Positions 3,853 to 19,873 of a stretch of DNA of 64,000 nt are shown one piece after another. The stretch lies in assembly GCF_000724605.1 (NCBI RefSeq), contig NZ_CP008802.1, positions 248,001-312,000 of the forward strand, written 5' to 3'. The translations under genes were made by a program, and so were the position numbers. The stretch's first letter is position 1. Each line of letters starts with the position of its first letter. This DNA is from Actinotignum schaalii (GTDB lineage Bacteria > Actinomycetota > Actinomycetes > Actinomycetales > Actinomycetaceae). Below the pieces are notes generated by a model, which did not search any database, was not told where the DNA came from, and saw nothing but the letters and a program-made list of their open reading frames with translations.

Positions 3853-4611
3853 TCAGGATTCTTTGGCACCAAGCGAACGCGAGATCTTTGCTGCGGTTTG
3901 TTTAACCTGGGGAACCAAAGCGACGACTTCATCCATGCTTTTCTCCAATGTTAAAGTCGTGATTGATAATGCATGGTTCACACGTCCAAGATGGTTGCGA
4001 ATAGGGACGGCAACACACCGAATTCCGGGCACATTCTCTTCGTCGTCAATAGCGAATCCGCGGTCGCGAACTGTGTTGATTTCTTTTATTAGTTCAGCGG
4101 TTGTCGAAATAGTTCGGGGTGTATGTTTAGGGAGTTGCATCTCGGCCACGTAACGAATGATCGCCTCATCCTCTTCCTCGGCGAGGAAACACTTACCAAT
4201 TGAAGTTGAATGGAGAGGAAGCCGATCCCCAATTCGTGATGGTATGCGGTACGGGGTATCAGTTTCTTGTATGGCAACATAAACGGCATCTTTACCGTTC
4301 CTCGCCCCAATGTGCACTTGGCACCCAACTTCGCGGGCAAGTTGTCGGATGTAGGGTTTCGTTTGTTGAGAGATGTCGATTCTTTCGAATGCTGTTGCGG
4401 CGAGTGACAAAGCAGCCGGTCCGGCGTAATAGTTTCCGTCAGGGCTTACCGCAATGAACTCGTACTTCACCAAAGTTTGGAGAAGGCGATGCACACTAGA
4501 TTTTGCCAGGCCGGTCGCGTTAACGATGTCGGTAAAACGGGGGTGTTGCAGTGCTGCCTGAAGAACAATGAGAGTTTTATCGGCTGCGCTCGGGCTCTGT
4601 TTGGTACTCAA
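3853..4611 (-). CDS. IclR-family transcriptional regulator
   Basis: A 252-residue IclR-type regulator. Residues about 10-60 form the winged helix-turn-helix (FTDIVNATGLAKSSVHRLLQTL), and the rest is the GAF-like effector domain, including VGCQVHIGARNG and FAIDDEENVPGIRCVAVPI. The start is a TTG at 4611 preceded by GAAGG. It is divergent from the fuconate dehydratase gene across a 373-bp gap that contains two GGAAC/GTTCC palindromes, so autoregulation and control of the adjacent sugar-acid module are likely. IclR members next to such modules commonly sense sugar-acid intermediates; the actual effector is unknown. It converges with dnaG with 28 bases between the stops. Confidence 0.9.
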   Translation of the reverse strand: MSTKQSPSAADKTLIVLQAALQHPRFTDIVNATGLAKSSVHRLLQTLVKYEFIAVSPDGNYYAGPAALSLAATAFERIDISQQTKPYIRQLAREVGCQVHIGARNGKDAVYVAIQETDTPYRIPSRIGDRLPLHSTSIGKCFLAEEEDEAIIRYVAEMQLPKHTPRTISTTAELIKEINTVRDRGFAIDDEENVPGIRCVAVPIRNHLGRVNHALSITTLTLEKSMDEVVALVPQVKQTAAKISRSLGAKES

Positions 4612-4647
4612 GAGAAGAACCTTCTTCTAGATTAATACGGACCACCA

Positions 4648-4664
4648 GTTCCATTTTATGGAAC
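4648..4664. promoter_or_regulatory. Candidate IclR operator 1
   Basis: GTTCCAT-TTT-ATGGAAC, two perfect 7-bp inverted arms around three T, 37 bases upstream of the IclR start codon. It shares the GTTCC/GGAAC half with the palindrome at 4941-4955. The operator role is inferred. Confidence 0.5.
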
Positions 4665-4940
4665 TCAATTGTAGATGGTTGGCTGTTGCTTGTGTGCCTC
4701 CTCTCGTAAGGAGCCTTGAGGAACCGGAAACGATTCAAAGTCGTGCGGGAAGAGTCGCCCCGCATTTGTTTTGACCCTGAAATTATTATTTCCTGTATCT
4801 TTGGCGAGATTATGAAGATATGTGAAGGATGTCATACCTAAATACTAAACCCGCGTATTTGTGCAGTTTTACGCACTGGGTGCAAATCTTGGTTGCAAAA
4901 GGTCCTAGGATAGTTCCCCAAATGGGACTAGGGTTCATGA

Positions 4941-4955
4941 CGTGGAACTTCCACG
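4941..4955. promoter_or_regulatory. Candidate IclR operator 2
   Basis: CGTGGAACTTCCACG, a perfect 7-bp inverted repeat around one C, 30 bases before the GTG start of the fuconate dehydratase gene. Apart from these two palindromes, the 4612-4984 gap shows no gene. Confidence 0.45.
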
Positions 4956-4984
4956 GTGGGTAACTAAAACAAAGGAGTTTACTC

Positions 4985-6270
4985 GTGAGTAAGATTACCG
5001 GCGTAAAAACGTACGATTTTCGATTCCCCACATCTAACACGCTCTCTGGCTCGGATGCGATGAATCCCGACCCTGACTACTCGTCTGCTTATGTAGAGAT
5101 TTCTACTGACGCTGATGATGGAATTATCGGTGTTGGATTTGTGTTCACCATTGGTCGTGGAAATGATGTTGTTTGCGCGGCAATGAACTCTATGGCTCAC
5201 ACGCTCGTCGGGCGTAATGTTGAAGAGCTGCTCGACAATATGCGACTCGCGTGGGATCTGCTCGTAGGGGATTCCCAACTGCGGTGGCTTGGTCCCGAGA
5301 AGGGCGTGGAGCATATGGCTATCGGTGCATTGCTCTCTGCGCTTTGGGATATATCAAAGCCAAGCGTGCTGGAAAGCCGCTGTGGCGCCTGCTGGGCGAA
5401 ATGGAACCGGAAGAGTTGGTCGCAACCCTTGATTTCCGTTATCTTTCTGATGCGCTTCGTCCTGAAGAAGCTATTGAGTTCCTAAAGGACGGTCAGCGTG
5501 GTAAGCAAGAAAGAATTGCCAACCTTCTTGAAAATGGCTACCCCGGGTATTCCACTGCCGCGGGTTGGCTAGGGTACTCAGATGAAAAGATGGTCTCGCT
5601 GTGTAAGGAAGAGACTCAAGAAAAAGGGTTCAAGCTTATCAAGCTGAAGGTGGGACGCCGCGTCGAGGATGATATTCGGCGTCTTGGGTTAGCTCGCGAA
5701 GCTATTGGTCCCGATGTGAAGTTGGCTGTTGATGCTAACCAGGTGTGGGACGTTCCTGATGCGATTTCTTGGATTAACGAATTCCATGATTTCGATTTGG
5801 CTTGGGTTGAAGAGCCGACTTCGCCGGATGATGTGGTGGGACACGCAACCATTGCACGCGCTATTAATCCGATTCCTGTAGCAACTGGCGAACATATGCA
5901 GAACAGGATCATGTTCAAGCAGTATCTCCAAATGAATGCGTTTGGAATCATGCAGATTGATGCAACCCGTGTTGCGGGCCCGCAGGAACTGGTTATCGAA
6001 TACCTGCTTGCCAAGAAGTTTAATAAGCCTGTCTGCCCGCACGCTGGCGGCGTTGGCCTATGCGAAGCTGTGGCGCACTTTGCGATGTTTGATTACGTCG
6101 CGGTATCCGGAACTATGGAGAACCGGTTGATTGAGTACGTTGATAACCAACATGAACACTTTGTGCACCCGACAGTTATCAAGAATGGCAACTATATGCC
6201 GCAAACGGCTCCCGGCAACGGTGCTGAGATGACTCAGGCAACCGCTGAAAAGTACCTCTACCGAGGCTAA
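4985..6270 (+). pseudogene. fucD: L-fuconate dehydratase, frameshifted
   Basis: Enolase-superfamily dehydratase that would convert L-fuconate to 2-keto-3-deoxy-L-fuconate. It matches the FucD/ENOSF1 family from end to end: RFPTSNTLSGSDAM and QLRWLGPEKGV in the first frame; GWLGYSDEKM, KLIKLKVG, VDANQVWDVPDA, WVEEPTSPDD, GEHMQNR and CPHAGGVGLCE in the second. The start is GTG at 4985 after AAGGAG. The frame changes around 5349-5354, where GATATATCAAAGCC replaces the expected GATATCAAAGCC: a 2-bp gain in an AT run. Removing it gives WDIKAKRAGKPLW with normal family spacing. Either a slippage mutation or a sequencing error; the rest of the gene looks well conserved. Confidence 0.85.
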
Positions 6271-6406
6271 TTCTCCCGGGAAAACCACGTTCCACTGCCG
6301 CACGCGGGCTAAATAAATAGCTGTCGCTGCTTGCTATTGGTAATCCATTTGGATTCCCCGCGTGCGGCGGTGCGGACGTTGCACTCGTCAGAAAAAGGAA
6401 ATATAG

Positions 6407-7864
6407 ATGAATGCTTTACTTGTAGGTGTGAGTCAGCTACAAAGCTCAATACCCCAGGGACTTTTACCTTTCGCTCGCGATATCCCGGAAGTAAGTCTTA
6501 ACCCGGCAGCGCTTCTCATCAGTATCGTAACCGGCGTTGCCATCCTCATTATTTTGGTTAGCTGGGCGAAAGTTCACCCCTTCCTCGCGATTATGCTTGC
6601 GGCTCTGATTACCGGAATTGGGTCCGGGTTCGGGCTGATGAACACCGTCCACGCCTTCCTTGACGGCTTTGGAGACACCACTAAAAGTGTCGGTATCTTA
6701 GTCGGTATCGGTGCAATGTTGGGTGCGGTTTTGATGGTAACGGGAGCGACCGGCGTTTTAGTTGACGTTCTGATTTCGAAGTCGTCTCGCAAGATGCTCC
6801 CTTGGACTATGGCTCTCATCGGGTCTCTTATTGGGTTGCCCCTGTTCTTTGATGTTGGACTGATCATCATGGCTCCGGTGATCATCATGGTTACGCGGAA
6901 ATCTAAGATGCCCCTTATGATGATCGCGATGCCAGCCCTGGCGGGTCTTTGTGCAATGCAGGCACTCGTTCCTCCACACCCCGGGCCCACCGCCGCTCTC
7001 CAAACCTTTGAGAATGGTTCCATGGGCATCACGATGGGTATGGGCATTGTCCTTGCTATTCCTCTTGTTATTATCTGCGGACCGCTGTTCGCGAAGTACT
7101 CGACGCGCATCGTGCCGCGCGGTGCGCCGGACACGTTCGCTATGGCGGATAAAGAGGACGGTGTTGAAGGTCGTCGTAAGCCTTCCTTCGGGTTGTCTCT
7201 GCTCTGTGTCACCATGCCGGCCATTCTTCTCTTGATCACTTCGATTATCATGATGGTCCGCCCTGACCTTCACGATTCCAAGGAAATGGGTGCTCAGATT
7301 TTGCAGTTTATCGGGAATCCCGAGATTGCCCTTCTGATTTCACTGGTATTTGCATCTCTCACGCTTTTCGTTACGACAAGGTACCCGTGGGAAAAGCTCA
7401 ACGATGAAGCCGGGAAATCGTTACGTCCCATTGCTGGAATTGTATTTATCCTCGGAGCTGGTGGCGGTTTCAAGAACCTTCTGATTGATACCGGCATTGG
7501 AGATATGATCACTAAGTTTGTGGAAAACACAAATATATCGATCATCTTGATTGCTTGGGTGATTGCGGTGTTCGTGCGTGTGGCTACAGGGTCCTCGACG
7601 GTTTCGGCCATTACTACGGCCGGTATTCTGGAGCCGACAGCCACGGCACTTGCCTATGATCCGATCCAAACAGGCCTTCTTGTCCTTGCAATCGGTGCTG
7701 GGTCGTTTATTTTCTCCTTCGTAAACGACGCGGGCCTTTGGCTGGTAAAGGAGTACTTCGGATTCACGCTTCCTGAGATGTTCAAGACCTGGACAGTGAT
7801 GACATGTTTGATCTCCATTGTTGGGTTAGTTCTGGTTTGGGGTCTTGGGCTCTTCCTGTTGTAG
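6407..7864 (+). CDS. GntP-family sugar-acid permease (fuconate module)
   Basis: A 485-residue membrane protein of the gluconate:H+ symporter (GntP) family with about 12-14 hydrophobic helices. Family features include GLPLFFDVGLIIMAPVI, the VPPHPGPTAA loop and a C-terminal ATGSSTVSAITTAG plus FVNDAGLWLVKEYF. An AAAGGA site lies before the ATG. It sits between the fuconate dehydratase and aldolase genes. GntP proteins carry aldonates such as gluconate, so L-fuconate or a similar acid is the likely substrate (inference). The gene is intact although both neighbouring enzyme genes are frameshifted. Confidence 0.92.
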   Translation: MNALLVGVSQLQSSIPQGLLPFARDIPEVSLNPAALLISIVTGVAILIILVSWAKVHPFLAIMLAALITGIGSGFGLMNTVHAFLDGFGDTTKSVGILVGIGAMLGAVLMVTGATGVLVDVLISKSSRKMLPWTMALIGSLIGLPLFFDVGLIIMAPVIIMVTRKSKMPLMMIAMPALAGLCAMQALVPPHPGPTAALQTFENGSMGITMGMGIVLAIPLVIICGPLFAKYSTRIVPRGAPDTFAMADKEDGVEGRRKPSFGLSLLCVTMPAILLLITSIIMMVRPDLHDSKEMGAQILQFIGNPEIALLISLVFASLTLFVTTRYPWEKLNDEAGKSLRPIAGIVFILGAGGGFKNLLIDTGIGDMITKFVENTNISIILIAWVIAVFVRVATGSSTVSAITTAGILEPTATALAYDPIQTGLLVLAIGAGSFIFSFVNDAGLWLVKEYFGFTLPEMFKTWTVMTCLISIVGLVLVWGLGLFLL

Positions 7865-7903
7865 CGTAAATTCAATTATTTGAATTGGTCCTAACGTAGG
7901 GCT

Positions 7904-7948
7904 ATCGCTGGCCGGCGTGTTCAATGATTCAGCGCGCCGGTCAGCGAT
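7904..7948 (+). terminator. Hairpin after gntP
   Basis: Fourteen-base arms, ATCGCTGGCCGGCG and CGCCGGTCAGCGAT, with one mismatch and a 17-base loop, followed by GTTTCC. It lies 40 bases after the permease stop. A smaller palindrome, AATTCAA-TTAT-TTGAATT, lies at 7869-7886. No long T-run, so termination is only probable. Confidence 0.5.
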
Positions 7949-8093
7949 GTTTCCTGCGGTAGCTTATTGTCTTCTAGTGTTTTGCGCGGGTATGGATTCG
8001 CATTCCTCCTGTTATCGTTCGAAGTAAGTCGCAATGATGCGTGAGACATGGAAATGGGTAGCTTTTATTTGCCCAAACCTGGAAGGGGTTGGA

Positions 8094-8982
8094 ATGTTTT
8101 CTGGTGTGTATTGCCCGTCGGTCACGTTGATCGACGATTCGGGTGCGATTGATTATCCGGCGATGGCTGCCCATATTGATCGTCTTGCCGAGTCCGGGCT
8201 CAACGGGGTGCTCTTCTTCGGCTCGATTGGGGAGTTTTTCTCTTTCTCTACGGAGGAGAAGGCCGAGTTCTTGAAGTTCGCGGTCAAGCAGGCCGCGGGG
8301 CGTTTCCAGGTGCTGGCCGGGGTGAGCGCGGCGCGGCTGGGTGAGGTGCTGGAGAATATCGCGGCTGCTGAGGCGGCTGGTGTGGATGGCGTGGTGGCCC
8401 TCCCGCCGTTCTATTTCGGTCATTCGTACGGGCGGGCGCTTGATTTTTATGACGCGGTTGCGGGCGCGACGCAGCTTCCTGTTATGCTTTATAACTTCCC
8501 GGAGCGCACGTGCGGATTTGACTCCGGAGCTGGTGGCTGAGCTGGCCGCCCGGCACGAAAATATTGTGGCGCTCAAAGATACGGTGGATACTCAGAGTCA
8601 TACGCGGCGGGTGATTCGTGAGGTGAAGAAGGTGCGCCCGGATTTCGCGGTGCTTTCTGGTTTTGATGAGTATTACATTGGGAATCGGGTGTGTGGCGGG
8701 GCCGGGGTGCTTTCTGGCCTGACGAATTTGATTCCTGAGGTGTTTGCGGCGATGCATGCGGCGTATGAGGCCGGGGATGTTACGCGCGCGGCTGCGGAGT
8801 TGGGGAAGATTACGCGTTTGGCTGCGGTGTATGAGATCGGTGATATTTTCATTGCTGCGATTAAGGAGGGTGTGCGTTTGTGCGGGGTGGAGTGCTCGCC
8901 GTTGATGCGTGCCCCGCAGGTCCCGTTGAGTGCGGAGGATTCGGAGAAAATCGCGACGCTGCTGCGCGAAGTAAGGGCATAG
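8094..8982 (+). pseudogene. DapA-type aldolase (DHDPS/NAL family), frameshifted
   Basis: Class I aldolase of the dihydrodipicolinate synthase/N-acetylneuraminate lyase family. In this setting it probably splits a 2-keto-3-deoxy sugar acid into pyruvate and an aldehyde. The first frame has YCPSVTLID, GVLFFGSIGEFF and MLYNFPERT with the family Tyr; the second has the Schiff-base Lys in IVALKDTVD and GFDEYYIGN. The frames join near 8510/8511, where ACG-TGCGGAT stands where the family would have RTGADL, consistent with loss of two G. I chose the ATG at 8094 after GGAAGGGG; an earlier in-frame ATG at 8034 lacks a ribosome binding site. Confidence 0.82.
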
Positions 8983-10239: not shown

Positions 10240-11402
10240 GTGTACCGTCCTTGATTTAGCTTTCTGGTTGTTGGGTGGGGGTTTCCAGGGTTGTTCTCGC
10301 GCGTGCTATTTTCTCCAGGAGGCTATCCACGTCAGCTACCCACGTGAATGGTTTGGCGGTAAGGTTGCGTTCCTTGATCCAGGCCATGATCTTTTCTTCC
10401 AGGTCGGTTACTGAGGTGAACACTCCTCTGCGGATGAGTTTGTCGGTGATGATACCGAAGAAGCGTTCGACTTGGTTGAGCCAGGAAGAACTGGTGGGAG
10501 TGAAGTGGAAGGTGAAGCGGGGGTGTTTATCGAGCCAGTCTTTGACTTTGGAGTGTTTATGCGTTGCCAGGTTGTCTAACACGATATGTACATCCACGTC
10601 TTCGGGTACTGTTTGTTCGATGAGGTTGAGGAAGGCCATGAATTCTTGATGGCGGTGACGCTTAGAAGTACGCGCGATGACTTTCCCGGTTGCCACGTCA
10701 AGGGTCGCGAAAAGAGTGGAGGTGCCATGGCGTTTATAGTCGTGAGCCATCGTGCCTGCCCTACCTGGTTTCATGGGCAGGGAAGGTTGGGTGCGGTCCA
10801 GGGCTTGGATGGAAGATTTCTCATCCACGCATAGCACCAGTGCTTTCTCGGGAGGGTTGAGGTACAGGCCGACAACGTCTATAAGCTTTTCCTTGAATAG
10901 CGGGTCGTTAGAGAGTTTGAACGTGTCGGTGCGGTGGGGCCGGATCCCTAACGATTTCCAGACTTTCGCGACCGTGGTTTTACTCATTCCGCACTCTTTG
11001 GCCATCGAGCGTGCTGACCAGTGAGTATCCCCGCTGGGAGGCTTAGTGTTGAGGGTCATCTCGATCATGGACATGTAGTCCTCGTCGGAATACGTAGGTT
11101 TACGTCCTCTACCGGGTGCGATTTTCCCGAAGTTGGTTAGTCCTTCTTCTTCGAAGCGTTTACGCCAGTTACGTACCGTGATAGCCGAGGTATCAAAACG
11201 CCTGGCTATCTCCAGGTTAGCTATTCCCTGGCTCGCGGCTAGCAGGGCCCCGGCCCGCACCACTTCACGGTGTGGGCGTGAGGGTGAGTTGTAGATCTTT
11301 TCCAGGGCGCTTCGTTCCTCGTCGCTCAAGGCGAGTGGTTTAGCGGGGTGCGACATGGATTAATAATACCATCACCAGTAAGCTATTTCAAGGACAGTAC
11401 AC
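10240..11402 (-). mobile_element. IS630-family insertion sequence, apparently complete
   Basis: A single transposase gene lies between terminal inverted repeats. The left end reads GTGTACCGTCCTTGATTTAG from 10240; the right end at 11381-11402 is its inverse with three mismatches. A TA lies on each side (10238-10239 and 11403-11404) within CTAG, the usual IS630 target and duplication. The intact gene and nearly matched ends suggest a recent or still mobile copy. Confidence 0.88.
10256..11356 (-). CDS. IS630-family transposase
   Basis: A 366-residue DDE transposase in one frame. Two helix-turn-helix segments occupy about residues 30-150 (NLEIARRFDTSAITVRNWRK and MAKECGMSKTTVAKVWKSLG). The catalytic triad sits in LCVDEKSS, HIVLDNLATHKHS and TSSSWLNQVERFF. 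The length is complete for one-ORF IS630 members and no frameshift is present. The stop lies close to the inner edge of the left inverted repeat. Confidence 0.93.
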   Translation of the reverse strand: MSHPAKPLALSDEERSALEKIYNSPSRPHREVVRAGALLAASQGIANLEIARRFDTSAITVRNWRKRFEEEGLTNFGKIAPGRGRKPTYSDEDYMSMIEMTLNTKPPSGDTHWSARSMAKECGMSKTTVAKVWKSLGIRPHRTDTFKLSNDPLFKEKLIDVVGLYLNPPEKALVLCVDEKSSIQALDRTQPSLPMKPGRAGTMAHDYKRHGTSTLFATLDVATGKVIARTSKRHRHQEFMAFLNLIEQTVPEDVDVHIVLDNLATHKHSKVKDWLDKHPRFTFHFTPTSSSWLNQVERFFGIITDKLIRRGVFTSVTDLEEKIMAWIKERNLTAKPFTWVADVDSLLEKIARARTTLETPTQQPES

Positions 11403-12584: not shown

Positions 12585-13952
12585 CTATACGATGAGGTAG
12601 ACCAGGGAGCAGAAACCGAAGGATACGAGGGATATGACTGAGGTGAACGTGGTCCACATCTTCAGATTCGTTTTCGTGTCTACTTGAAGGAAGCCGCCTA
12701 CTAGCCAGAACCCGGAATCGTTGACGTGGGAAGCGAAGAAGGATCCTGCTCCCATCGCCACCACAACGAGTGCGGTTTGGATGTCGTTGAGTCCGGCACC
12801 TGCCACGGTGGCTGCGAGCAAGGCCGCGGTGGTTTGGATGGCCACGGTTGCTGAGCCTTGTGCGACTCGTAGTGCCAGGGAAATAAGGTAGGCAGCCAGG
12901 AGCAGGGGAATACCAAGATCGGCGAGCGTGTTAGCAAGCGCGGTACCGATACCGGTTTCGCGTAACACGGACCCGAACATGCCACCAGCACCGGCGACCA
13001 TGACGATCGCGGCTACTGATTTGAACCCAGCATCGTTGATCTTATCGATATTCTTCCAGGGTACTTTACGTACATAACCCAAAATGATTGACGCGACTAG
13101 CGCGGTAACGAACAGGGCGACAGCGGTTTCACCGAAGAATTTCAGTGCGCTTGCCCAGGCAGCGTTTTCCGGGATGATTCCCGCTGATTGCAGGGTACTG
13201 GTGACCGTGTTACCGGTAATCAACAAGATCGGGAGCATGAGGATGAAGAGGACGGTCGCGAAGGCGGGTTCTTTCCCGGGTAGTTCACGCCCGGATTCTT
13301 TCGATCCGAGAACGTTGGGGATGGGAACGTCGAACCGCTTGGACAGCCATAGTGCGAAGCGGTAGCCTGCCAGGTACCAGGTGGGAATCGCGACGATCAA
13401 ACCAACCAAGAGCACGGTCCCGATATTGATATTCATCGTGGTAGCCGCGGCTACGGGGCCGGGGTGGGGTGGCATGAGTCCGTGCATGACCTGGAACGCG
13501 CCTGCTGCTGGCAAGGCATACAGGAGTACTGGTCCGCCCAGGCGACGGGCAACGGAGAAGATGATCGGGAACATGACGATGAGTCCGGCATCGAAGAAAA
13601 TTGGGAAGCCGAACAAGAGCGACGCTACCGAGAGGGCTAGGGGTGCTCGTTTTTCACCGAACCAACGTAGCAGGGTTTGGGCGAGTACTTCAGCACCTCC
13701 GGATTGTTCGAGCATACGCCCGATGATTGCCCCGAACCCGATAATGAGAGCGAGTTTGCCAACGGTGCCCGAGAACCCGGTGAGCAGCATATCGAATAGC
13801 TCGCTGACTGGGACTCCGGTAGCGATAGCAGTTAGGCCTGATACTAGGATGAGCGCGACTGTAGCGTTGACTTTAAAAACGATAATAAGGAAGAGTAAAA
13901 CGGCTATCGCTGCCAGAGCGACACCGAGGAGGCCTCCTGTTGTCAGAGTCAT
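12585..13952 (-). CDS. GntP-family permease (inositol-type operon)
   Basis: A 455-residue multi-helix membrane protein of the gluconate:H+ symporter family. Diagnostic stretches are GFPIFFDAGLIVMFPII, MPPHPGPVAAAT, GSATVAIQTTAA and FASHVNDSGFWLVGGF. A strong AAGGAG precedes the ATG. It is the last gene of mmsA-iolC-aldolase-gntP, 27 bases after the aldolase gene. Because the three enzymes are exactly those needed after 5-dehydro-2-deoxygluconate, that acid is an attractive substrate (inference); gluconate-like acids are the family norm. Confidence 0.92.
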   Translation of the reverse strand: MTLTTGGLLGVALAAIAVLLFLIIVFKVNATVALILVSGLTAIATGVPVSELFDMLLTGFSGTVGKLALIIGFGAIIGRMLEQSGGAEVLAQTLLRWFGEKRAPLALSVASLLFGFPIFFDAGLIVMFPIIFSVARRLGGPVLLYALPAAGAFQVMHGLMPPHPGPVAAATTMNINIGTVLLVGLIVAIPTWYLAGYRFALWLSKRFDVPIPNVLGSKESGRELPGKEPAFATVLFILMLPILLITGNTVTSTLQSAGIIPENAAWASALKFFGETAVALFVTALVASIILGYVRKVPWKNIDKINDAGFKSVAAIVMVAGAGGMFGSVLRETGIGTALANTLADLGIPLLLAAYLISLALRVAQGSATVAIQTTAALLAATVAGAGLNDIQTALVVVAMGAGSFFASHVNDSGFWLVGGFLQVDTKTNLKMWTTFTSVISLVSFGFCSLVYLIV

Positions 13953-13979
13953 GAGTGCTCCTTGGATATGTGGGCTTCT

Positions 13980-14843
13980 CTAGGAGAGAAGCTGGGCGGC
14001 GTTGGCCACGGCGCCTTGAACGTCGCCTGATTGTGGATAGAGCAATGACCGGCCAATAACCAGGCCGATCACGTTAGGGATCTCCAAGAGGAGAGCCCAC
14101 CTGTGCAGGGTTTTAGCAGCGTCATTGCTGACTTCCCCGCCGAGGATAACGATGGGAAGGGTAGTAGCCCGAGCGAAGCGTTCCAGGTCTGGGGTATCGG
14201 GAAGTTTGAGGACCGTGTAGGCACTGTTAGCCCCCAAGCCTGAAGCGATTGCTATCGAGCGGGTGACAGCATCGGTAGAAACATCATTGATGACCTGGTT
14301 GCCTTCACGTTTTGAGATGAAGGGTTCGACCATGGCGATGCGTTGGCGCCGGGCAAGGTCGGTGACTACTTTCCCTGCCATCTCTAACGTGCCAACGGTT
14401 TGTGTTTCCTCGTAGGCGATACGGAGCAGGATTTTCCCTCCTTGCAGGCCTGCTTTGGTTATCCCTTTAGCCGTATAGCCTGTGATACGGTCATCGAGTT
14501 CCCAGGCGGCCCCGGCGAGCCCTGCCCGGTTCATCGACCCGTATACCCATTTGCCGTCCAGGGCTCTCAGGAGTGCGAGGTCTTCAATGATGTCGGCTGT
14601 TCCTAACAGGCCGGAAACCCCGGGCACGGCAAGCGCGTCACACAGGCGTGCGAGTAGGTCGAAACGGTCTTCCATAGCGCGTGGGTTAGCGCCAGCGGCA
14701 AACGCGCCCCGGGCGGGGTGGTCGGCGGCCATGATAAGGAATTTCCCGTTGGGTAGGAGGCTGGCGGGTTGCTCGCGTGTAAGCAAGGCTTGGTGAGCAG
14801 TGCCCGGGCAACGCCGTCCTGCAATAAGCCTGGCAATATCCAT
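13980..14843 (-). CDS. Cgl0158-type (beta/alpha)8 aldolase, inositol pathway
   Basis: A 287-residue TIM-barrel protein resembling the DhnA/class I aldolase-like proteins found next to iolC in actinobacterial inositol clusters. Visible features are FLIMAADHPARGAF near the N-terminus, GGKILLRIAYEETQ, MVEPFISKR and LPIVILGGEVSNDA. By context it would cleave 5-dehydro-2-deoxygluconate 6-phosphate into dihydroxyacetone phosphate and malonate semialdehyde, the step done by IolJ in Bacillus. The ATG lies two bases after the iolC stop, so translation is probably coupled. The chemistry is inferred from neighbours. Confidence 0.78.
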   Translation of the reverse strand: MDIARLIAGRRCPGTAHQALLTREQPASLLPNGKFLIMAADHPARGAFAAGANPRAMEDRFDLLARLCDALAVPGVSGLLGTADIIEDLALLRALDGKWVYGSMNRAGLAGAAWELDDRITGYTAKGITKAGLQGGKILLRIAYEETQTVGTLEMAGKVVTDLARRQRIAMVEPFISKREGNQVINDVSTDAVTRSIAIASGLGANSAYTVLKLPDTPDLERFARATTLPIVILGGEVSNDAAKTLHRWALLLEIPNVIGLVIGRSLLYPQSGDVQGAVANAAQLLS

Positions 14844-14845
14844 GG

Positions 14846-15841
14846 TTACTGGTTGCTTTCTACTGATTTGGGTGTATCGAGTAGTGCGTCGGTGTGGTTA
14901 GCAGCTAGTACTTGCTCGATTTCGTCCTGGGTGGGCATAGCGGTAGAGCATTCAATACGCGAGGTCACGATCGCGCCGGCAGTGTTGGCATACCGGATCG
15001 TTTTCTCCAGGCTCCAGCCCTGTAAAAGCCCATGGACAAGGGACCCACCGAAAGCATCCCCAGCTCCTGCCCCGTTGACCACAGTCGTGTTCATCGCGGG
15101 GATAAAGAATTCTTCCGTGCTCGATTTCGCGAGGGTGCCCTTGCTTCCTTGCTTGACCACAGCGATCTGGACCCCGCGTTCCAGTAGTGCTGTCGCAGCC
15201 CGGTGTGGGTCGGTTTCCCCGACCGCGATTTCGCATTCTTCTACGTTGCCAACCGCAACTGTGGCGTAGTCGAGTACCTTGGCGTAACGTTCCCGGGCCA
15301 GATCAACTGACTCCCAGAACATTGGACGCCAGTCCATATCGAAAACCGTGTGGTCTTTACGCCCACGCATGTCAAGCGCGCTCATGTGGGTTGAATACGA
15401 GGGGTCCTCACACAGGCCCGTCCCGGAAACCCACAAAAGTTTGGCCTCACGAACTTGGTCTTCGTCCAGGTCAGTTTCCTTGATCTGTAGGTCGGGTGCC
15501 GAGGGTTCACGGTAGAAGAAGAACGGGAAATGTTCGGGCGGGATAATCTCGCAGAAGGTCACAGGCGTGTTCAGGGTATCGTCAACGATCACGTATTCAT
15601 CTGATACTCCGAGCCTGCGCATTTCCAGGCGTACCCACCGCCCGAAAGGATCATTACCAACACCGGTGAGGGTGGCGCAGTCTTCTCCCAGGCGTGCTGC
15701 TGCTACCGCAACGTTAGTAGGCGATCCTCCCAGGAATTTCCCGAAAGTCTTGACTTCTTCGAGGGTGCAATTAGTTTGTAGGGGATAGATATCGACGCCG
15801 CAGCGTCCGATTGTTAGTACATCATGGACGACCATGTCCAT
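14846..15841 (-). CDS. iolC: 5-dehydro-2-deoxygluconokinase
   Basis: A 331-residue PfkB/ribokinase-family sugar kinase. It shows GRCGVDIYP at the N-terminus, FLGGSPTNVAVAAARLG, and the catalytic NGAGAGDAFGGSLVHGL near residue 265. The overall pattern matches IolC, which phosphorylates 5-dehydro-2-deoxygluconate using ATP. I chose the ATG at 15841 downstream of AAGGA; a GTG directly before it is also in frame. It lies 18 bases after mmsA and two bases before the aldolase gene, and all three share the minus-strand operon. Confidence 0.88.
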   Translation of the reverse strand: MDMVVHDVLTIGRCGVDIYPLQTNCTLEEVKTFGKFLGGSPTNVAVAAARLGEDCATLTGVGNDPFGRWVRLEMRRLGVSDEYVIVDDTLNTPVTFCEIIPPEHFPFFFYREPSAPDLQIKETDLDEDQVREAKLLWVSGTGLCEDPSYSTHMSALDMRGRKDHTVFDMDWRPMFWESVDLARERYAKVLDYATVAVGNVEECEIAVGETDPHRAATALLERGVQIAVVKQGSKGTLAKSSTEEFFIPAMNTTVVNGAGAGDAFGGSLVHGLLQGWSLEKTIRYANTAGAIVTSRIECSTAMPTQDEIEQVLAANHTDALLDTPKSVESNQ

Positions 15842-15859
15842 CACTTCCTTATCTATTGT

Positions 15860-17350
15860 TTATTCGGTGCGTTCAAACGACATTGTTGCTTCATAGGTGC
15901 CCTCGGAAGGCCAACGCACCGTGGTGGCCTTCGCGCGCGTGTAGAAGCGCACGCCTTCGGGCCCGTGGATATGGGTATCTCCCATGAGAGAGTCTTTCCA
16001 TCCACCAAACGAGTAGTAGGCTACGGGTGTGGGGATGGGGACGTTGATACCGACCATGCCAGCTTCAACTTCCAGTTCGAAACGACGTGCCAAGCCGCCA
16101 TCATTCGTGAAGATCGCTGCACCATTGCCGTACGGCGAGGAATTGACAAGAGTGATAGCTTCTTCATAGGTATCTACCTCAACGATGGCCAGGACGGGAC
16201 CGAAAGTTTCTTGCCTGTAGAGGAGGGAATTTTGGGGGACGTGCGTGCAAATAGTTGGACCGAGGAAATACCCCTTCTCGTGCCCGGTAACGCTGAGAGT
16301 GCGCCCGTCAAGGATGACTTTCGCGCCTTTTTCTTCGGCATCATTGATCGCACCAATAATGCGTTGTTTCGATTGAGCGTTGATAACCGGGCCCATTTGG
16401 ACGCCTTCGTCCAGGCCGTAACCCACCCGGATAAGCTCGGCGTGGTTCTTGACTGCTTTCGCGAGTTTTTCACCGATCCCGCCCACCGCGACAGCAACTG
16501 GCAGGGCCATGCAGCGTTCACCTGCCGCGCCGAAAGCCGCAGCTGAGAGATGTTTGCCAGCGAATTCGATATCAGCATCGGGCATCACAATCGCATGGTT
16601 ATTAGCCCCACCCAATGCTTGGACACGTTTACCCGCGCGCACCGCACGCTCCTGGATCAGTTTCGCCACCGGGGTTGAACCCACGAAAGAAACAGCCCTT
16701 ATATCCGGGTGGTCAATCATAGCCATCGTAAAATCATTCGACCCGGAAATAACCTGGAAGACCCCGTCAGGCAGTCCTGCTTCCTTATACAGACGCGCAA
16801 TCACAAGAGAAGCCGAGGGCGTGGCCGGTGCGGGTTTCAAAATGAAAGCATTCCCGGTAGCAATAGCAATCGGGTGCATCCACATAGGCACCATCACCGG
16901 GAAATTAAACGGGCAAATCCCGCTAACAACACCCAAGGGCTGGCGTAGCGTGTGAATATCTACCCCGGTGGAAATATTCGACGAGGTTTCACCTTTCAAA
17001 GCGACGTTAATCCCGCAAGCAAAATCAAGAGTCTCCCGCCCACGCTGGATCTCCCCGATAGCATCCGAATAATCCTTACCATGCTCAGCAACAATCGCTT
17101 TAGCGATCTCGTCTTGATGGTCCAGGACAAGCTGGCGCATCCGATACATGATCTCGGTACGCTTAGCCAACGAGGTGCGAGCCCAAGCTTTTTGAGCCTT
17201 AACAGCAACCCCTACCGCGTAGTCAAGATCTTCACGGCTTGCCTGTAACAAATACCCGCGAATCTCACCCCTAGCAGGGTCATCAACCTCAATCTTTCCT
17301 TCGGATTGCCCCGTGTATAGGCCACCATTAATCCAATGAGGTATATCCAT
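15860..17350 (-). CDS. mmsA: CoA-acylating methylmalonate-semialdehyde dehydrogenase
   Basis: A 496-residue aldehyde dehydrogenase of the MMSDH/IolA type, which turns malonate semialdehyde or methylmalonate semialdehyde plus CoA and NAD into acetyl- or propionyl-CoA and CO2. Signature pieces are ICPFNFPVMVPMWMHPIA, FVGSTPVAKLIQ, LGGANNHAIVMPDAD and the nucleophile in GAAGERCMAL (C280). The ordinary ALDH general-base Glu is replaced by the LGGA sequence, as expected in this CoA-dependent branch. I chose the ATG at 17350, eight bases after AAGGAG. First gene of the operon, divergent from the GntR regulator. Confidence 0.92.
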   Translation of the reverse strand: MDIPHWINGGLYTGQSEGKIEVDDPARGEIRGYLLQASREDLDYAVGVAVKAQKAWARTSLAKRTEIMYRMRQLVLDHQDEIAKAIVAEHGKDYSDAIGEIQRGRETLDFACGINVALKGETSSNISTGVDIHTLRQPLGVVSGICPFNFPVMVPMWMHPIAIATGNAFILKPAPATPSASLVIARLYKEAGLPDGVFQVISGSNDFTMAMIDHPDIRAVSFVGSTPVAKLIQERAVRAGKRVQALGGANNHAIVMPDADIEFAGKHLSAAAFGAAGERCMALPVAVAVGGIGEKLAKAVKNHAELIRVGYGLDEGVQMGPVINAQSKQRIIGAINDAEEKGAKVILDGRTLSVTGHEKGYFLGPTICTHVPQNSLLYRQETFGPVLAIVEVDTYEEAITLVNSSPYGNGAAIFTNDGGLARRFELEVEAGMVGINVPIPTPVAYYSFGGWKDSLMGDTHIHGPEGVRFYTRAKATTVRWPSEGTYEATMSFERTE

Positions 17351-17437
17351 TCGTATCACTCCTTTGTGAGTTCAAACCAGCAACCCCACCAACAGCGGCC
17401 GCCTCAGTTGTTTCCAAAATAACCCCACCCCACCCAC

Positions 17438-17564
17438 TTGTAAACACAAAAGACCAGCCAGTGCGGCCAGTAAACTTGAATGAACGCGGCCATATAGGCC
17501 GCTATCGAAGCGCTAAAAGCAGAGAAACACTAGCCAATCTCACTATTATCAGCTAAGTTTACAA
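17438..17564. promoter_or_regulatory. Candidate GntR/UTRA boxes in the divergent promoter region
   Basis: TTGTAAAC at 17438-17445 is mirrored by GTTTACAA at 17557-17564, with a third GTAAAC at 17470-17475. A separate palindrome, GCGGCC-ATATA-GGCCGC, lies at 17486-17502. The 17351-17599 gap holds both divergent promoters, so these are the likely operator sites; assignment is inferred. Confidence 0.4.
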
Positions 17565-17599
17565 TTGGGTGAACAAATAAGAGTGAGAGGGTCACGTTA

Positions 17600-18382
17600 A
17601 TGTCAAACCTGGGTGGGAAAGGCAATCCGGACCAACTGGATATTCCGGTCGCTCCGCAGATTGTTTTCGACTCTCGCTCCTCGCTTCCTTTGCATCAACA
17701 AATCACGCAATCATTAGGGAGCCTGATTGACTCGGGCGCGCTTGTGCCTGGTCAGCTCCTTGAAGACGAGGTATCTATGTCACGCAGGCTGGGAGTCTCA
17801 CGTCCTACACTGCGGCGGGCGTTGCAAGTGTTGACTGATGAGGGGAAACTTTCGCGGCGTCCACGTGTGGGGACCAGGGTGATGCCACGGGTTTTCCAAC
17901 GGGATCCTTCCCTGGCTAGTCTCTCCGATGATTTACGGGCCGCGGGTCGTGAACCACGCACGGATGTTCTCCAGTATCGGGTGGTGTTTGCTGATAGTGG
18001 TCTAGCTGGCGATATGCATTGCCCGGAAGGTAAAGAGATCGTGGCTTTGGAGCGGTTGCGGTGGGCTGAGGGGAATCGTATGGGGATTATGCGTAACTGG
18101 ATCCCAGCTGATCTAGCGCCCTCGCTTACCGCTATATCATCGGGTGGTCTCTACGATTTCTTCAAGAGCCATGGGATTGTGTTACGCGGTGGGGTCCAGC
18201 GTATTAGCGCGCGTAGCGCGACCCCCGCGGAAGCAGAACTCTTACACGTGGCATCCGGCGCACCGCTCTTACGGGTGCGGCGTAGTGCTTATGATGAATC
18301 CGGGCGGGTCGTGGATCTAGCCGACCACCTCTACGACGCAGATCAATACGACCTCACCCTCCCACTCAACTTCCCAGCGTGA
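17600..18382 (+). CDS. GntR-family regulator (HutC/UTRA type)
   Basis: A 260-residue regulator. Residues about 25-90 form the GntR winged helix (LPLHQQITQSLGSLIDSG, MSRRLGVSRPTLRRALQVL, then the wing SRRPRVGTRV). The C-terminal UTRA effector domain follows (LRAAGREPRTDVLQY, PLLRVRRSAYDESGRVV, YDADQYDL). It is divergent from mmsA, the arrangement of a local repressor. Actinobacterial inositol clusters are controlled by GntR-type IolR, so this may be an IolR-like repressor; the effector is unknown. Confidence 0.9.
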   Translation: MSNLGGKGNPDQLDIPVAPQIVFDSRSSLPLHQQITQSLGSLIDSGALVPGQLLEDEVSMSRRLGVSRPTLRRALQVLTDEGKLSRRPRVGTRVMPRVFQRDPSLASLSDDLRAAGREPRTDVLQYRVVFADSGLAGDMHCPEGKEIVALERLRWAEGNRMGIMRNWIPADLAPSLTAISSGGLYDFFKSHGIVLRGGVQRISARSATPAEAELLHVASGAPLLRVRRSAYDESGRVVDLADHLYDADQYDLTLPLNFPA

Positions 18383-18538: not shown

Positions 18539-19873
18539 CTAAAGCACTTCCGGAGGAGTTTCTAACTGGTCGGCTATATCTTCCCAGTTAGATGCGAAGT
18601 TGCCGTATGCGGTTTTGATATCAACACCCACAGGGAGCTCCGGACATTCGTTTTCGAGGTTGGTACCCCAGTTTCCCCATCCCGACTGCTTGCGCTGTAC
18701 GATCTGGAAGCCTCCCGATGGCTTTGACGTATACCAGATCATTGCACGGCCGGTAGATGTGTCATATTCGACTGTCTTATCGGAAGCTCCGGGGAAGATA
18801 GTCTCGTGCTCCTCTTTCTGGACGTCGATAGGTTCAGAATCGACTTGCCAATCACGCAGCTCTGCATCAACAAACGATTTCTCGCGAACAATTGCCAGCC
18901 GTTCGCGGATTGTTTCGTCTGTTAAAGCACCTTCGAAAGTCGAGAATAGGCGCCAGTACAAATCCCAATGGGCGTTCTCAATATCATCGGTTAAGACGGC
19001 CTTAAATTCTTCGAGTTTCTTACGCTGCGGCAATGTGTCGTCAGAAATGGTCTGATCTACCATGTCGGCCAGGTGTCCAGCGTAAGGATCGCCGCTGCGA
19101 TATCGGGATCCTCCATAGCACGCAAACCGATCAAAGAGCAGTTTTCCTTGTCCGGCTTCGAATTCATCCCCGACGGTGATCTTGTTAGTTACAGAACGCC
19201 CGTTGATCACGGTTTGGAAATCATCTACGTAATAACGACGGCTGAACCAAGGCGTTCTATAAGTGAAAGCCCACTCGATTGAGAAGTTTTTACCCCTGAG
19301 CTCTGGGAGGAGTCCGTCTGGAATCACACCTAGCATTCGGAACGAAAGCAAAACTGGTCCGTCTTCAAGGATCTCAATCTTCACCTTTGTGTGTTCTGGC
19401 GGATTGATCAGTCCGTTTTCAGGAGTGAAGAACGGGCCGTAAAATCCGCCAATCGCATTGTTTCCAGAGGGGAGGAGGTCAATACCCTCATCCAGGGTAC
19501 GGAAATGCTTGAGCCCCCACTTCGATGCACCAGTGCCCTCTGCGGTACCCGTGCATACATCAATATCGAAGTAGCCCGTATTAACGCGGGCCCATGAGTC
19601 CGCTTCATTACCGGGTCCTCTTGTGATTCCTTCTCCGGATTCGACTGGTTCATCCAGTGTGAAACTTGCCTCGCCCTCAAAACTGAGTGTAGTGACAAAT
19701 CTGGTGGCCTTTTGTGGAGCCGGCTGATCAGCCAATCGCTGGCAAAGGATCTGCTCTCCAGTATTGGTTCGTGCTAGCCATAAAGACTCTGTGAGCACTT
19801 GCGGTTCATCGAAGTAAATCGGCTCGAATGCCCGCTTTCCTTCGATATTACTGATTACTTTATGGGTCTTCAT
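18539..19873 (-). CDS. Unrecognised 444-residue protein of the LacI/ABC sugar locus
   Basis: I do not recognise this protein. It has no signal peptide or membrane helix, is acidic, and is rich in Trp, Tyr, Phe and Gly, which suggests a beta-rich cytoplasmic carbohydrate-active or carbohydrate-binding fold. Notable stretches are SKWGLKHFRTLDEG, GGFYGPFFTPENG, FTYRTPWFSRRYYVDDFQ and KQSGWGNWGTN. Its ATG directly follows the permease stop (TAG-ATG, RBS GGAAAG inside the permease end), so it is translationally coupled to the transporter. It is the only enzyme candidate in the operon and may act on the imported sugar, but no reaction can be assigned. Confidence 0.8.
   Translation of the reverse strand: MKTHKVISNIEGKRAFEPIYFDEPQVLTESLWLARTNTGEQILCQRLADQPAPQKATRFVTTLSFEGEASFTLDEPVESGEGITRGPGNEADSWARVNTGYFDIDVCTGTAEGTGASKWGLKHFRTLDEGIDLLPSGNNAIGGFYGPFFTPENGLINPPEHTKVKIEILEDGPVLLSFRMLGVIPDGLLPELRGKNFSIEWAFTYRTPWFSRRYYVDDFQTVINGRSVTNKITVGDEFEAGQGKLLFDRFACYGGSRYRSGDPYAGHLADMVDQTISDDTLPQRKKLEEFKAVLTDDIENAHWDLYWRLFSTFEGALTDETIRERLAIVREKSFVDAELRDWQVDSEPIDVQKEEHETIFPGASDKTVEYDTSTGRAMIWYTSKPSGGFQIVQRKQSGWGNWGTNLENECPELPVGVDIKTAYGNFASNWEDIADQLETPPEVL

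Follow-up and report, generated by a model that had tools for sequence, protein, structure and literature searches.

A 64,000-nucleotide stretch of the Actinotignum schaalii genome (contig NZ_CP008802.1, positions 248,001–312,000 of the forward strand; the window hereafter) contains, at window positions 12585–18382, a tight operon-like cluster of four genes and a divergent GntR-type regulator. Sequence comparisons indicate that this cluster is probably a scavenging module, in which the lower steps of actinobacterial inositol breakdown are joined to a sugar-acid importer for the use of 5-dehydro-2-deoxygluconate or a very close acid, and that the importer has apparently replaced the upper pathway. 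The cluster appears to be a real and as yet undescribed variant of the known inositol pathway, not a new kind of system, and its substrate is a predicted one.

The four genes are encoded on the reverse strand and are separated by 15, 2 and 27 bp. The first (15860–17359) encodes a CoA-acylating (methyl)malonate-semialdehyde dehydrogenase (MMSDH), which scores 625 bits with TIGR01722 against a cut-off of 448.5. It is followed by an IolC-type 5-dehydro-2-deoxygluconokinase (14846–15844; TIGR04382, 355 bits, cut-off 300), a Cgl0159-type aldolase (13980–14843; PF22649, 346 bits, with the entire profile matched) and, as the final gene, a GntP-family permease (12585–13952; PF02447, 385 bits; TIGR00791, 351 bits, cut-off 293). 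The kinase, MMSDH and permease each exceed a curated NCBIfam cut-off, and the aldolase and permease both pass their Pfam thresholds (a gathering score of 27 for PF22649 and a cut-off of 22.5 for PF02447). The GntR/HutC-type regulator, with PF00392 and UTRA (PF07702) domains, lies on the forward strand at 17600–18382. The region between the divergent genes (17360–17599) is, from its position, the presumed promoter and operator. All five genes are single open frames, and we infer that those of the cluster are co-transcribed. The gene content given in the preliminary description was therefore correct in position and family, except that the aldolase had been called Cgl0158-type. Its sole convincing solved relative is PDB entry 3fok ('uncharacterized protein Cgl0159'), and we take Cgl0158 to be the kinase gene. 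The best PDB relative of the kinase is 3pl2, and a search of the PDB for a solved relative of the permease gave none at E 0.001.

Two residues of the aldolase, K137 and E173, are invariant across 10 aligned rows and are spaced 36 residues apart. According to PMC9007349, the Lys and Glu of LacD and DUF2090 are spaced by 38 residues, which offers an analogy to the module aldolase but not an alignment. The same source describes IolJ as a characterized aldolase for this step and DUF2090 as a proposed one, so that IolJ and the IolC–DUF2090 fusions share with the module the proposed cleavage of 2-deoxy-5-keto-gluconate 6-phosphate. The module aldolase differs from both in being a separate Cgl0159 protein, a family that is not named in that paper, and no activity assay of the Cgl0159 family was found in the open-licence literature. 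Lone Cgl0159-family proteins, 45% identical to that of the window and without an adjoining kinase, occur at L044:9807–10670 and L045:9674–10537, and the L044 protein has lost the otherwise conserved Lys213. As for the regulator, a comparison of shared 8-mers in 14 intergenic stretches did not reveal a common operator motif (the top words occurred in 4 stretches and were matched by 11 of 50 shuffles), and the two weak promoter-like sites in 17360–17599 are no better than those in shuffled sequence.

The upper half of the inositol pathway is missing not only from the operon, as had been noted previously for IolG, IolE, IolD and IolB, but from the genome. The window genome (G000) is a single contig of 2,159,306 bases, 99.95% complete, and the search covered all of it. 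Neither IolB nor IolE has a match. Three PF01261 matches resemble, in our reading, L-ribulose-5-phosphate epimerase, xylose isomerase and a rhamnose-isomerase-like gene. The only IolD match reaches 183 bits (cut-off 715) and is located near a gene read as ilvC, and for both reasons we take it to be an acetolactate synthase. One IolG-like protein (genome positions 831038–832033) reaches 256 bits, short of its cut-off of 355; its gene is unlinked to the cluster, more than 500 kb away, and is adjoined by an SSS-type symporter gene. A complete upper pathway elsewhere in the genome, which the preliminary description had named as fatal to its reading, was thus not found. The same pattern extends to all seven genomes that carry the module (G000, G052–G055, G091 and G092). 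IolE has matches in 0/7 of these, compared with 5/5 controls (only control G049 being above cut-off), and above cut-off neither IolD nor IolB is present in any of the seven, compared with 4/4 controls in each case; a single sub-threshold IolB match (74 bits) occurs in G092. In PMC9430895, a myo-inositol cluster was counted only where at least three of iolB, iolC, iolD and iolE occur together. The present cluster has IolC but not two further members of IolB, IolD and IolE, nor IolG, which is expected in that scheme without being core, and a module of this type would therefore go uncounted.

The arrangement recurs in two genera, in two gene orders, which rules out a chance neighborhood. A scan of genome contigs with the permease alignment gave, among the matches listed, at least 8 loci from 7 genomes, with 7 of the loci in six module genomes and the other, a relative at 32% identity, from Niallia. 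Among these matches, A. timonense, A. schaalii (two genomes) and A. sanguinis carry the protein at 98–99% identity, and a second genus, represented by Actinomycetaceae bacterium zg-1166 and Arcanobacterium haemolyticum ET43 (the record name), carries it at 67–68%; the window permease is 68% identical to that of the second genus. In total, the cluster is present in five of the six Actinotignum genomes, including that of the window, and in two genomes of the second genus, and the remaining Actinotignum genome (G056) has no aldolase match. In A. schaalii AS1054 (G054; L037 and L038), two slightly different kinase–aldolase–GntP copies were observed on contigs that each end at the same place in the kinase. 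MMSDH and the regulator are not seen there because both contigs stop inside that gene, and the paired copies represent either a duplication or two strains within one assembly.

The gene order of the second genus suggests how the permease is placed. G091 and G092 have the order GntR | kinase–aldolase–GntP–MMSDH, a free-standing five-gene cluster flanked by genes read as gatA/gatB and central-metabolism (housekeeping) genes. The full inositol operon at L050 has the order GntR | kinase–aldolase–IolB–IolD–MMSDH, with IolC, IolB, IolD, MMSDH and an IolG above cut-off. From this parallel, GntP occupies exactly the IolB–IolD slot. The myo-inositol operon of Corynebacterium glutamicum is of the same GntR | IolC–Cgl0159–IolB–IolD–MMSDH type. 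The module and the actinobacterial myo-inositol operon thus share their kinase, aldolase and MMSDH families, the kinase–aldolase adjacency and a homologous divergent regulator, which adjoins the kinase in the full inositol operons of the family; they differ in that the module has GntP in the IolB–IolD place and lacks IolB, IolD, IolE and IolG above cut-off. The comparison of the four-gene arrangement in related genomes, as proposed in the preliminary description, supports the logic of a lower-only pathway with an aldonate importer.

Within the family, PF22649 was found in 103 of 213 genomes, and we read the aldolase neighborhood in 50 of these 103: the 30 highest-scoring ones with roughly 1.5 kb of flanking sequence (G115 also in a longer stretch) and 20 others, in longer stretches, picked partly for low aldolase score. 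The aldolase adjoins IolB in 39 of the 50 neighborhoods and is found in the GntP arrangement in 7. Two (G112 and G115) have the kinase and aldolase with no IolB within the stretch read, and two (G151 and G163) have the aldolase by itself. GntP is next to the aldolase in none of the other 43, 29 of which were viewed with just 1.5 kb on each side. At the G115 locus (L055, genus g16), the kinase–aldolase pair lies in a 12.4 kb stretch without IolB, IolD or MMSDH and with IolG-like genes nearby; the missing genes may be elsewhere in that genome. In G147, G148 and G168, IolB and IolD adjoin the kinase, and a Cgl0159 protein is absent. Among 396 genomes of the order, IolC is present at E 1e-60 in 154 and GntP at E 1e-60 in 190, and a hand reading of the matches listed places the two within 5 kb of each other only in G000 and G091; several genomes of genus g46 have them, among the matches listed, approximately 16–50 kb apart. 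When 396 genomes of the phylum were searched, identity fell to 62% for the next-ranked kinase and to 54% for the next-ranked GntP; within this sample, the module type of kinase was therefore seen only in these two genera. Relatives of the kinase are also present in 16 plasmid records, every one below 60% identity.

In quick trees, which drew a program warning about the meeting of long branches, the kinases of the module fall into one clade (SH-like approximate likelihood ratio test support 100, stem 0.87), as do the module aldolases (support 91, stem 0.72). The kinase, aldolase and permease thus appear to have moved together, whereas the regulator may be a separate addition, as perhaps may MMSDH. 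In 14 gene comparisons (window/G053, window/G052 and G091/G092, the last with GntR left out), the ratio of nonsynonymous to synonymous substitution rates (dN/dS) by a simple Nei–Gojobori calculation is 0.014–0.095, with dS above 1.2 for G091–G092, and there are no internal stops. The tested pairs are under strong purifying selection.

A pathway consistent with these genes is as follows. GntP would import 5-dehydro-2-deoxygluconate or a very close 2-deoxy-5-keto-hexonate, and the IolC-type kinase would phosphorylate the imported acid at C6. The Cgl0159-type aldolase would then cleave the 6-phosphate to dihydroxyacetone phosphate (DHAP) and malonate semialdehyde, of which the former would enter glycolysis and the latter would be converted by MMSDH to acetyl-CoA, CO2 and NADH. 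The GntR–UTRA regulator presumably represses the cluster until the substrate or its phosphate is present; according to PMC9603128, the GntR-type IolR is a repressor of the inositol genes of C. glutamicum. We infer each reaction, the transported substrate, the effector of the regulator and the extracellular origin of the acid. The presence of MMSDH is informative here, as it implies a product with a malonate-semialdehyde skeleton and hence a 2-deoxy acid, and argues against a 5-ketogluconate or 2-keto-3-deoxygluconate (KDG) route. The preliminary description had the cell 'burn' the acid, and this should read 'ferment', because A. schaalii is described in its genome paper (PMC5720513) as a fermenter with no tricarboxylic acid cycle.

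Is the permease of a suitable kind? RefSeq labels E. coli GntP as a fructuronate transporter and IdnT as an L-idonate/5-ketogluconate/gluconate transporter. Fructuronate is 5-keto-mannonate and is distinguished from 5-ketogluconate only at C2, and removal of the C2 hydroxyl from either gives 5-dehydro-2-deoxygluconate. The GntP family therefore has the right kind of substrate, and with relatives carrying the 2-hydroxy versions of the proposed acid, import of 5-dehydro-2-deoxygluconate is the best reading, though unproven. The module permease is, however, only 29% and 34% identical to E. coli GntP and IdnT, respectively; it falls on the YgbN branch of the E. coli paralogues (40% identity) and has different partner enzymes. 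GntP-family transporters are also listed for gluconic and xylonic acid in PMC12076931. Taken with the slot, the two genera and the selection on the genes, the earlier proposal is supported as far as a lower-only pathway with an aldonate importer, while the exact acid and its release by other microbes stay at the level of prediction. More tentative than the scavenging reading as a whole, and somewhat less probable than not, is the specific proposition that Actinotignum and the neighboring genus possess an import-and-ferment pathway dedicated to 5-dehydro-2-deoxygluconate.

Several observations weigh against this reading. First, actinobacterial GntP relatives at about 50% identity, six of which had their neighbors viewed, adjoin a gluconokinase (over its cut-off) in three cases (L070, L071 and L078). 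Another (L080), which speaks for the reading, is beside gluconate-5-dehydrogenase-like and idonate-dehydrogenase-like genes, both under cut-off, and the other two (L079 and L082) have neither gluconokinase nor idonate-type genes adjoining. With half of the viewed relatives beside gluconokinase, gluconate is the default expectation for the permease. Second, the closest GntP outside the module (67%, G255) stands by itself on a contig of 8.7 kb, near a gene read as an integrase, and is nested in the module GntP clade, so that the transporter type is not tied to the module. Third, neither MMSDH nor GntR forms a single clade that unites the two genera. MMSDH may still have had one origin, but well-supported branches of the GntR tree force two changes, with a long branch to the Actinotignum proteins. 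The separate joining of these genes would argue against a single inherited cassette, yet it would make the repeated pairing more telling. Fourth, the stems of the kinase and aldolase clades are long, with support of just 91% for the aldolase, and the kinases differ at eight columns that are conserved at 95% or more in 40 kinases of full operons (27, 101, 108, 109, 150, 170, 259 and 287). These are changed in 6/6 module rows, and columns 108 and 109 adjoin the FYR motif, which we take to be a carboxylate binder. The changes could reflect long-branch drift or a slightly different substrate. Finally, no natural extracellular source of 5-dehydro-2-deoxygluconate was found in the open-licence literature. 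In PMC8355322, the acid is reported to accumulate after inositol feeding of Anaerostipes.

These sequence changes bear on the first of the alternatives, an unlikely one, in which a close analogue is broken down instead, for instance a different stereoisomer or a 2-deoxyaldonate first oxidized at C5 by an unlinked dehydrogenase. The same chemistry would still yield DHAP and malonate semialdehyde. Alteration of the kinase and aldolase at otherwise fixed positions makes such an analogue possible, and the long stems and the changes beside the FYR motif point in the same direction. Measured against 40 full-operon kinase rows, 42 aldolase rows and 12 MMSDH rows (after dropping rows L069, L073, L075 and L076 for the kinase and L044, L045 and L069 for the aldolase), the module aldolase retains just 87 of 111 conserved columns, whereas MMSDH retains 171 of 177. 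The kinase, however, retains 134 of 150, and no sugar-acid dehydrogenase accompanies the module in both genera.

It is less probable still that the permease and the enzymes serve separate ends, with GntP importing gluconate or a similar aldonate for the Entner–Doudoroff route and the kinase being one of the 'three kdgK' of the organism. According to PMC5720513, A. schaalii has gntP in five paralogues and kdgK in three copies, together with a semiphosphorylative Entner–Doudoroff route; where that paper mentions inositol, it is in connection with a symporter and phosphatidylinositol, and the terms 5-dehydro-2-deoxy, 5-keto-2-deoxy and methylmalonate are absent from it. This route shares GntP uptake and a sugar-acid kinase with the module, and the gluconokinase neighbors of the GntP relatives would fit it. 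It requires, however, a KDG kinase and a 2-keto-3-deoxy-6-phosphogluconate aldolase, and has no place for MMSDH or the Cgl0159 aldolase. Moreover, the module kinase scores 144 bits with NF040938 and 70 bits with NF052444, failing the cut-off of 400 in each case, compared with 355 bits on the IolC model. KDG kinase identity is ruled out by these scores, which also weigh against a kinase whose sole substrate is some other sugar, for example a 2-keto-3-deoxy acid. PMC5720513 may have counted the module kinase among its 'kdgK' genes. That GntP stays with the enzymes in two genera, in different gene orders, is also difficult to reconcile with separate functions.

Two further readings are very improbable. 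Inositol might be used by way of upper enzymes unrelated to IolE, IolD and IolB, with the IolG-like protein beside the SSS-type symporter providing the first step, but this protein is under its cut-off and unlinked, in a genome with no IolB or IolE match and no IolD above cut-off. The cluster might instead be what is left of a once complete inositol operon, decaying and now without function. This would account for the homology of the kinase, aldolase, MMSDH and regulator to those of the full operon in other genera and for their similar arrangement, but is dismissed by the intact frames, by the dN/dS ratios of the tested pairs from both genera, which rule out a dead remnant, and by a permease that was gained and retained.

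Other genes of the window were noted on both sides of the module. Next to it, at 3853–8982, are genes for an IclR-type regulator, an enolase-superfamily sugar-acid dehydratase, a second GntP (6407–7864) and a dihydrodipicolinate synthase-family lyase. The dehydratase and the lyase are each split into two overlapping frames in the window and are single frames (427 and 316 aa) in A. timonense (L040). A DDE_3-type transposase gene (10256–11356, reverse strand) is located between this second GntP cluster and the module, and at about this position A. timonense carries a different gene that we interpret as a transposase. On the other side, at 18539–19873 (reverse strand), a 444-aa protein is encoded by the final gene of a ribose-type ATP-binding cassette sugar transporter cluster with its own LacI regulator. 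It is 96–97% identical in three relatives of the genus and has no Pfam or NCBIfam match at E 0.001, with a best PDB match no better than E 0.47.

The preliminary description knew of no dedicated module of this kind, and our search agrees: within the open-licence literature, we found no description of such a module or of uptake of this acid, no paper joining the name of the kinase with GntP and none joining two of iolC, gluconate permease, malonate semialdehyde dehydrogenase and 'lacks iolG'. If the proposed scavenging of 5-dehydro-2-deoxygluconate is correct, an acid hitherto treated as an internal intermediate of inositol breakdown would be a nutrient that is exchanged, or otherwise freely available, in the niches that these bacteria occupy. 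The reading predicts an unlisted nutrient, an extracellular 2-deoxy-5-keto sugar acid, where Actinotignum and other host-associated actinobacteria live, and offers one clean gene set with which to test that prediction. It may also correct a KDG kinase interpretation of this protein in Actinotignum, and would provide a testable new substrate for a permease of the large GntP family.

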